Source of the DNA: Sulfurimonas sp. HSL3-2
GTDB taxonomy: Bacteria > Campylobacterota > Campylobacteria > Campylobacterales > Sulfurimonadaceae
NCBI RefSeq assembly: GCF_039645965.1
Contig: NZ_CP147917.1
Span: 1-64,000 of the forward strand
Length of the DNA: 64,000 nt
Reading direction: 5' to 3'
How positions within the stretch are numbered: the stretch's first letter is position 1; every line of letters begins with the position of its first letter. The notes beneath the pieces are model-generated. The model did not search any database, was not told the origin of the DNA, and worked only from the letters and a program-made list of their open reading frames with translations. The position numbers were made by a program, and so were the translations under genes. Positions 44,409 through 46,821 of this stretch are shown one piece after another.

Positions 44409-45998
44409 ATGGTTGATGTTTTAGTTATCGGGGCAGGAGGTGCGGGACTTGTAGCTGCACTGAGTGCCAAGGAAGCGGGGGCGAGTGTGAAGGTTCTTAC
44501 AAAGACCTACCCTACCCGTTCACAGACCTGTATGGCTCAAGGCGGCATTAACGCAGCTTTGTCTAATGCAGGTGAAGACAGCATAGAGAGCCATTACGAA
44601 AACACTCTAAAATCGGCACACGGCATCGCAGACGAGAAGATGGTGAAAAAACTTTGTGACGAGGGTGTCGATGCGGTTTTATGGCTTGACCGCATAGGCG
44701 TGCCTTTTAGCAGAGACGAAAACGGCAATATCGCTCAACGCCGTCTGGGCGGAGCGAGTGCACCGCGTGCGTGCTATGCTCAGGATTACACCGGACTTAA
44801 AATCCTTCATACGCTGTACGATCAATGTAACGCAAACGAGATAGAGATGCTAAGTGAGAGGTTTCTGCTTGAACTCATAGTAGCGGACGGAGAAGTCGGC
44901 GGAGCGGTAGTGCTAAACCTGAAAACGGGTGCGATCGAGACACATTATGCAAAAAGTGTGATTCTTGCAACGGGCGGATACAGCCGCATCTACGGAAAGA
45001 ACTCGACGAATGCCGTGGGTTCTACTGGTGACGGCATCGCAGCAGCATTAAGAGCGGGAGCAAAACTCAGCGATATGGAGTTTGTGCAGTTTCACCCCAC
45101 AGGGCTTAAAAACTCATCTATCCTTATCAGTGAAAGTGCCAGAGGCGAGGGCGGTTATCTTTTAAACAAAGAGGGCGAGCGTTTTACCGATGAGCTCGCA
45201 CCGCGAGATATGGTCAGCCGTGCCATCTATGAAGAGATACAAAAAAGCGGTGAGGTCTACATAGATATCCGTCACTTGGGAGAGGAGTTCATTGATCATC
45301 AGCTTCCTCAGGAGAGAAAACTTGCACGTCTGTATGAAAACGTCGATCCTGTGCACGACATTATCCCCATAAAACCTGTCGCTCACTATACGATGGGCGG
45401 TATTGCGGTGGATGCAAGTTCCCAGACGAGCATAAAAGCTCTTTTTGCCGTTGGAGAGTGTGCTAACCATAAAGTCCACGGAGCAAACAGACTCGGCGGA
45501 AACTCGCTTTTGGAACTGATCGTCTTTGGACGCGAGGCAGGGAAAAACGCTTCATCTTCTGCAAAACAGAGTACATTTGTACCCGAAGAGCCTCAAAACT
45601 ATGATGCTCTTTTAAAGGATGTGAACAACTCTGCGGACGGTGTCGACTTTTATAAAAAAAGAGATGAACTGGCTGATTGTTTTTATGAAAAAGTCGGGAT
45701 CAAACGTAATGATGCAGAGCTGCAACAAGCTGCCAAGTTCCTAAAAAGCGTCAAAGAGCAACTGCCTTTTATGGGTGTTAGAGATACAAACCCGATCTAT
45801 AACACGGAGTTAGTAGAGTTCTTGGAGTTTCATAACCTGCTGCAGATCTCTGAAGCGGTAGTTCTTGGCGCGATGAAACGTAAAGAGAGCAGAGGCGCAC
45901 ACTTCAGAGACGATATGCCGAGCGAAAGTGATGAGTTTCAAACAAATACGATTTACTATAAAAACGGAGACGAGTTATGCATAGATTTGACGAGATAA
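44409..45998 (+). CDS. sdhA: succinate dehydrogenase/fumarate reductase-type flavoprotein
   Basis: FAD subunit that interconverts fumarate and succinate. The 529-residue product has the FAD motif VLVIGAGGAGLVAALSAKEAG. Active-site segments include EFVQFHPTGL, LAPRDMVSRAIYEEI, VAHYTMGGIAVD and HGANRLGGNSLLELIVFGR. The histidine that carries covalent FAD (RSHT in SdhA/FrdA) is replaced by Gln39 (RSQTCMAQGG), so FAD is probably non-covalent, as in thiol:fumarate reductase-type enzymes. The C-terminal domain is short. Direction of catalysis cannot be told. Two genes overlap or follow directly. Confidence 0.85.
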   Translation: MVDVLVIGAGGAGLVAALSAKEAGASVKVLTKTYPTRSQTCMAQGGINAALSNAGEDSIESHYENTLKSAHGIADEKMVKKLCDEGVDAVLWLDRIGVPFSRDENGNIAQRRLGGASAPRACYAQDYTGLKILHTLYDQCNANEIEMLSERFLLELIVADGEVGGAVVLNLKTGAIETHYAKSVILATGGYSRIYGKNSTNAVGSTGDGIAAALRAGAKLSDMEFVQFHPTGLKNSSILISESARGEGGYLLNKEGERFTDELAPRDMVSRAIYEEIQKSGEVYIDIRHLGEEFIDHQLPQERKLARLYENVDPVHDIIPIKPVAHYTMGGIAVDASSQTSIKALFAVGECANHKVHGANRLGGNSLLELIVFGREAGKNASSSAKQSTFVPEEPQNYDALLKDVNNSADGVDFYKKRDELADCFYEKVGIKRNDAELQQAAKFLKSVKEQLPFMGVRDTNPIYNTELVEFLEFHNLLQISEAVVLGAMKRKESRGAHFRDDMPSESDEFQTNTIYYKNGDELCIDLTR

Positions 45999-46132
45999 GA
46001 TGTTTTGAGAACAACGAAGAGGAAACAGGGTCTGAGTGCATCTATGATGAAGAGGATGACAAGTGGGGAGAAGGCTGCTGTGAAGACGAGCTTATGGATG
46101 ATGATTTTTACGAAAGAGAGTACTGCGACTAA
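45977..46132 (+). CDS. acidic Cys-rich 51-residue ORF between sdhA and sdhB
   Basis: A previously overlooked ORF starts at an ATG 22 bases before the sdhA stop, in another frame, and ends TAATG, sharing bases with the sdhB start. That arrangement implies translational coupling of all three. The product has 22 Asp/Glu in 51 residues and five cysteines (9, 21, 34, 35, 50), including a CC pair, with no membrane segment. It could be a metal- or cluster-binding accessory, or simply a coupling peptide. I know of no family for it. Without it, 132 bases would separate sdhA from sdhB. Confidence 0.6.
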   Translation: MHRFDEIRCFENNEEETGSECIYDEEDDKWGEGCCEDELMDDDFYEREYCD

Positions 46133-46821
46133 TGAAGATAGAGATAAAAAGAGGCGATGCAATAGTCGCTTATGAGGTCATGCATGAAGACCTTACACTT
46201 TTACAACTACTGACGCATATTAAAACAGAACAGGACAGTACGCTTGCTTTTTCATCCGGATGCCGAAGCAGTGTCTGCGGAAGCTGTGCCATGAGAGTAA
46301 ACGGCAAAGAGGTGCTCGCCTGTTCATACAAACCTCAAGACGGCGATCTTATAGAGCCGCTGAGAAACGCTCCGGTTTTACGCGATCTTGTTGTAGATAT
46401 GGATAAAGCATATGCGTTTAATAAAGTGGCTCGTGCATGGGGTATACCGACACCGGATAACTTACATGTAAGCGTTAAAGATGCCGAGTTGAACGAGGTG
46501 CAAAGTGACTGTATCTTATGCGGTTCATGTTACAGTGCCTGCCCGGTGTATGCAGTAAACGGCGAGTTCATAGGTCCTTTTGCACTGACTCGGGTCTGGA
46601 AGTATGCGACGGATGTCAGACAAAGCGATATCTCTGCTGCGATAGCGGCAGTCCAGACTAGCGGCATCTATGACTGTACCCTTTGTAACGAGTGTGTACC
46701 TGTCTGCCCTCAGGGTATCGCTCCTAAGCAGGATATCGTGATGTTGAGAAACAAAAGCGGGGTCATGGGGTATATGGATCCAAACTTTGCTTCGAGTTTT
46801 GGAGGCGGTCTCACATTTTGA
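46132..46821 (+). CDS. sdhB: succinate dehydrogenase/fumarate reductase-type iron-sulfur protein
   Basis: Electron-transfer subunit of 229 residues. The ferredoxin domain binds 2Fe-2S through CRSSVCGSC (Cys44, 49, 52) and Cys64. The C-terminal domain has CILCGSCYSACP (Cys127, 130, 133, 137) and CTLCNECVPVCP (Cys182, 185, 188, 192). Canonical SdhB has a 3Fe-4S site with no cysteine at the position of Cys185; the full CxxCxxC here suggests a second 4Fe-4S cluster, as in class E/thiol:fumarate reductase-like enzymes. No membrane anchor or CCG-domain subunit follows in the window. Confidence 0.85.
   Translation: MKIEIKRGDAIVAYEVMHEDLTLLQLLTHIKTEQDSTLAFSSGCRSSVCGSCAMRVNGKEVLACSYKPQDGDLIEPLRNAPVLRDLVVDMDKAYAFNKVARAWGIPTPDNLHVSVKDAELNEVQSDCILCGSCYSACPVYAVNGEFIGPFALTRVWKYATDVRQSDISAAIAAVQTSGIYDCTLCNECVPVCPQGIAPKQDIVMLRNKSGVMGYMDPNFASSFGGGLTF

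Follow-up and report, generated by a model that had tools for sequence, protein, structure and literature searches.

A 51-codon acidic open reading frame (ORF) lodged between sdhA and sdhB is almost certainly a real protein-coding gene that evolves under purifying selection and is linked to SdhAB, judging by its conservation at the junctions of related genomes. As a tentative explanation that we hold with less than even confidence, but that seems to us the best when everything is taken together, the small protein would be an SdhA-binding assembly or capping factor analogous to mitochondrial SDHAF4, with a C-terminal plug that SdhB would displace. The gene is apparently undescribed: our literature searches turned up no published report of it. 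The features discussed here lie in the window, that is, the complete 64-kb stretch of DNA that was analyzed:

44409-45998, plus strand: sdhA/frdA-type flavoprotein subunit, 529 aa (Pfam FAD_binding_2 and Succ_DH_flav_C; TIGR01812 above cut-off)
45966-45969, plus strand: GGAG inside sdhA, likely Shine-Dalgarno sequence of the small ORF (direct reading)
45977-46132, plus strand: small acidic ORF (direct reading; conserved frame and purifying selection)
46064-46087, plus strand: motif 1, WGEGCCED (alignments A1 and A5)
46112-46129, plus strand: motif 2, C-terminal EREYCD, with the stop directly after it (alignments)
46132-46821, plus strand: sdhB/frdB-type iron-sulfur subunit, 229 aa (TIGR00384 above cut-off; Fer2_3 and Fer4 domains)

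The two-subunit host enzyme

The sequence-only reading of this DNA had assigned the flanking genes to an SdhA/SdhB complex, which is borne out insofar as both subunits match; however, this is not a classical succinate dehydrogenase because there is no adjacent anchor and no His for covalent FAD attachment. By its sequence, the window enzyme belongs to the fumarate-reductase type of SdhAB, with two subunits and no anchor. No gene for an anchor, a CCG subunit, or an SdhE-type protein lies beside sdhA and sdhB, the neighbors being a PAS protein and a methyltransferase-like protein. SdhA reads RSQTCMAQGG from residue 37 (window positions 44517-44546), with Gln at the covalent-FAD His position, whereas the second SdhA of the genome reads RSHS and keeps the FAD-linking His; the Gln is present in the SdhA of all relatives read, whether or not they have the small ORF. 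Given this replacement of His by Gln, the soluble enzyme probably holds its FAD non-covalently. Fumarate reductase mutants that lack the FAD-linking His favor fumarate reduction over succinate oxidation. The active-site His, Glu, and Arg motifs are kept in the window SdhA, including HYTMGG and NRLGGNS, which we take to be the motifs with the substrate-site His and Arg. In SdhB, the site of the third cluster (window positions 46675-46710, CTLCNECVPVCP) contains four Cys, which suggests [4Fe-4S] where [3Fe-4S] is usual.

The second Sdh of the genome (L202; contig position ~951.5-955.2 kb, with its SdhA at L202:4955-6667 on the minus strand) consists of a 570-aa A subunit, a 327-aa B subunit, and an HdrB/SdhE-like third subunit of 293 aa. 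It is of the general SdhABE/MfrABE kind (8-methylmenaquinol:fumarate reductase type), and its HdrB-like subunit is unrelated to the 51-aa ORF. The window enzyme corresponds to the two-subunit fumarate reductase/succinate dehydrogenase of Campylobacterota, which, in the excerpts of PMC4674564 that describe it, consists of just A and B and coexists with a second enzyme encoded by three genes; these excerpts do not mention a small third gene, and they cite the proposal of Sievert et al. 2008 that such enzymes are cytoplasmic and serve the reverse TCA cycle.

Evidence that the small ORF is a gene

The layout and composition of the ORF, as given in the sequence-only reading, proved exact on direct reading: starting with ATG, it encodes 51 aa, shares 22 bases with the end of sdhA (at 45998), and ends in a TAA whose last base, 46132, is the first base of the sdhB start codon (TAATG). 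The product contains 9 Asp and 13 Glu, so that 22 of its residues (43%) are acidic; its five Cys are at residues 9, 21, 34, 35, and 50, of which 34 and 35 form a CC pair. The GGAG lies 7 bases upstream of the ATG, and the Shine-Dalgarno sequence of sdhB itself is weak (GAGAG, 11 bases upstream of its ATG); given these two signals, both seen by direct reading, sdhB is probably translated in part by re-initiation after the small ORF.

The same reading had considered the tight coupling on both sides hard to explain by chance. The gene is indeed real by conservation, but packing by itself is no proof because ORFs of this size arise frequently by chance, with dozens in the ORF listing for the window. 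The first codons of the ORF, moreover, overlap the conserved C-terminus of SdhA in another frame, so that the shared 'MxRFxEI' is not independent evidence. An open frame produced fortuitously by the sdhA overlap and base composition would fit both the abundance of similar-sized ORFs and the mirroring of the SdhA C-terminus in the N-terminal part; it is refuted, however, by the codon-position rates and frame preservation, with pN/pS also speaking against it, and its probability is close to nil. For these rates, only the part of the small ORF outside the sdhA overlap was used. Nucleotide alignments for six clades contained zero out-of-phase aligned bases, the third codon position was ~2-7 times more variable than the first two (for example, 0.083, 0.041, and 0.253 for positions 1, 2, and 3 in genus g11), and the pooled pN/pS was 0.19-0.29 in five groups. 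Wherever the small ORF abuts sdhB, the frame is kept, although these junctions range in length from 58 to 214 bases. Thus, when stops and frameshifts were sought at the junctions of relatives with the same gene order, the ORF emerged as a conserved gene, and the selection analysis that had been proposed along with that search yielded the low pN/pS and the third-position excess.

Two motifs recur in the alignments, W-x-G-x-C-C-E-D and the C-terminal E-[RK]-E-[WY]-C-D-COOH. The C-terminus is conserved, the last residues being mostly E-[RKV]-E-[WY]-C-D with the stop directly after the Asp in all but one listed copy, whereas the middle of the protein is lost or replaced in many relatives. The codons of the terminal motif vary synonymously (GAA/GAG, AGA/CGN, TGT/TGC, GAC/GAT), and the motif is kept in copies that end 115-135 bases before sdhB. 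The description of the protein as Cys-rich holds for the window copy but not as a constant property: among the 15 aligned members of the main family the C-terminal Cys is the only invariant one, many natural versions carry a single Cys, about half of the versions in the Sulfuricurvum clade contain one to three Cys and no CCED, and part of genus g11 has VCED.

Several junctions contain additional DNA. In six rows of the Sulfuricurvum clade (L071, L077, L078, L086, L091, and L093), the small ORF appears to have acquired an insertion of repeat-like DNA, which partly encodes 'PFVVSLSNYERTLRQAQGER'-type peptides and leaves the frame and the C-terminus intact. Elsewhere (L058/L141, L075, L090, and L113), ~100-130 bases of extra DNA separate an intact small ORF from sdhB, and in some of these cases ..G-[WG]-C-D-stop appears once more at the end before sdhB.

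We considered, and rejected, the notion that the C-terminal motif is a mere ribosome-binding site for sdhB, inasmuch as it survives inserted DNA far from sdhB and varies synonymously. A related possibility is that the whole ORF is a translational-coupling leader, with the sole job of delivering ribosomes to the sdhB start. The tight overlaps at both ends, the weak sdhB Shine-Dalgarno sequence, and the unbroken frame of the abutting copies are in line with this; nevertheless, selection at the amino acid level and retention of the C-terminus at a distance from sdhB make it quite improbable as the only role, although coupling may be an added one.

Distribution among relatives

At a loose threshold, every one of the 60 nearest genomes contained a gene matching sdhB; at E 1e-50, such genes were detected in 178 of 200 genomes of the family. 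We read 120 distinct sdhA-sdhB junctions, with the start codons of some small-ORF copies being uncertain; 49 of these contain an acidic ORF that carries at least one of the two motifs, and another 4 harbor degenerate, shortened, or unclear-start copies (L013/L135, L016/L130, L084, L119). The ORF is present at all 29 junctions read in the Sulfuricurvum clade, sometimes in shortened form, in every row of genera g7 and g11, and in 6 of 8 rows of the window's genus; it is missing throughout the Sulfurimonas clade except for the loosely placed L023. At L016/L130, the frame is broken and the last codons alone remain, and at L014/L131, the ORF is gone from the junction. On an SdhB tree, a quick one with many weak branches, presence of the ORF changes 8 times, compared to ~39 times with shuffled labels.

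A second family, f4 (L034, L036, L115, L117, and L119), has a longer version of 61-70 aa where a start was called. The N-terminal half of this version is charged and coiled-coil-like, and the protein has GGNCCED but no WCD terminus; it may represent a second functional type. The presence of the gene in two families together with its scattered absence suggests gene loss, which counts on an unrooted tree cannot prove. In genomes without a junction ORF, profile searches gave no credible match to a copy elsewhere (60 relatives, 399 genomes of the order, and 298 of the phylum). Because some relatives have lost or lack the gene, not every SdhAB of the window type needs it.

Among the relatives from the window's own genus and the Sulfurimonas clade that lack the small gene, SdhA is otherwise alike. 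No SdhA or SdhB positions that track the presence of the ORF independently of phylogeny were found, and the net charge of SdhA and SdhB differs in no clear way. SdhB differences near the last cluster were examined as a co-variation signal and rejected, given that they follow the Sulfurimonas clade and not the presence of the gene.

Candidate functions of the small protein

Searches against Pfam, NCBIfam, and PDB detected no relative of the small protein, in agreement with the earlier remark that no matching subunit was known. The profile of DUF1674 (PF07896) matched none of the 15 members at E up to 10, that of SdhE/SDHAF2 (PF03937) likewise gave no match among the members, and no DUF1674 or SdhE-family protein above cut-off was detected in this genome or in 30 relatives. 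Modeled alone from a 15-row alignment, the protein is predicted to be unfolded (mean pLDDT 58, pTM 0.13, no secondary structure), which is compatible with intrinsic disorder but does not prove it. SdhA was also modeled with AlphaFold as one chain with the small protein, based on L129, in which the two are naturally in frame, and with a Gln at the sdhA stop serving simply as a linker; the tail was unplaced, with pLDDT ~30, a result that is weak either way, the tail having no alignment.

The sequence-only reading proposed a small subunit or an assembly factor; what stands is a conserved gene tied to SdhAB, for which either role is plausible. On balance, it seems somewhat likely that the protein acts in the assembly of SdhA and SdhB and not elsewhere. 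We consider it rather unlikely that the protein is a stable third subunit of the soluble SdhAB, or a docking peptide of this enzyme, providing, for instance, an acidic surface for its soluble electron donor. Such a role would agree with the location of the ORF between the two subunit genes in one operon, with the strong acidity of the protein, and with an SdhAB that has no adjacent anchor or SdhE-type partner, such as the other Sdh of the genome possesses. However, the ORF is absent from most Sulfurimonas that have the same SdhAB, no fold is predicted, and many relatives have lost or replaced the middle of the protein.

Still less likely appears a metal or Fe-S assembly factor, in which the CC pair and the C-terminal Cys would pass iron, sulfur, or a cluster to SdhB. 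The position immediately upstream of the Fe-S subunit gene and the occurrence of CCED in several genera and in the second family could be read in this sense, but many versions from the Sulfuricurvum clade lack CCED, VCED takes its place in part of g11, and no known family matches. In the main family, it is the C-terminus and not the CC pair that is kept longest, which argues against a general metal role, as do the natural versions with a single Cys.

The explanation that we tentatively prefer, an SDHAF4-like factor, can be outlined as follows. The product of the small ORF would be an accessory protein, disordered and strongly acidic, that attaches to freshly synthesized SdhA. The C-terminal -[WY]-C-Asp-COO- of this protein would enter the dicarboxylate site of SdhA and, once bound, would cap the FAD, itself probably non-covalent, until it is displaced by SdhB, which would be translated next through coupled re-initiation at TAATG. 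An Asp at the C-terminus, with its free alpha-carboxylate, presents two carboxylates separated by two carbons and thus resembles a tethered succinate. The retention of the substrate-site His and Arg in SdhA counts for the capping idea; the f4 version, with CCED but no WCD terminus, and the absence of the gene from nearly all of the Sulfurimonas clade and from some relatives in the window's genus count against it. The plug mechanism taken separately is possible but on the doubtful side.

SdhE/SDHAF2/Sdh5 (PF03937) resemble the small protein in being small and in serving, as factors, the flavoprotein, but they are folded, contain an RGxxE motif, and promote covalent FAD attachment; their client SdhA carries the FAD-linking His where the window SdhA has Gln. 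With SDHAF4/Sdh8/DUF1674 the small protein shares its small size and a conservation concentrated at the very C-terminus, including an Asp, and its predicted lack of fold is compatible with the disorder of SDHAF4. The best-studied task of SDHAF4 is the release of SDHAF2 from flavinylated SDHA, which has no obvious counterpart in a system with probably non-covalent FAD and no SdhE found. SDHAF4 acts on SDHA; by itself it is entirely disordered, and its conserved C-terminal residues D107-F108 sit on R451/H407 of SDHA in the dicarboxylate site, blocking this site and shielding FAD during assembly (PMC10784507). The proposed working principle would be the same, without detectable sequence homology. 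There are clear differences: SDHAF4 ends in D-F, whereas the small protein ends in C-D, with the D-F dipeptide absent; no PDB match was obtained although SDHA-SDHAF4 complexes are published (8DYD, 8DYE); and bacterial homologs of SDHAF4 are reported from alpha- and gamma-proteobacteria, whereas the small protein comes from Campylobacterota. With neither a DUF1674 profile match nor a D-F terminus, the small protein would be an analog of SDHAF4, not a member of its family. In a more speculative version, to which we give a low probability, this would be a microprotein family that employs the C-terminal Asp as a built-in substrate mimic to cap a fumarate reductase with non-covalent FAD, either convergent with SDHAF4 or acting as a soluble off-switch regulator.

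The host SdhAB belongs to sulfur-oxidizing bacteria, and no studies of its assembly were found. The small gene adds a conserved protein without a family entry to the enzyme that is thought to perform the fumarate step of CO2 fixation via the reverse TCA cycle. Should the capping idea hold true, it would furnish an independent example of assembly factors exploiting disorder and a substrate-like C-terminus.
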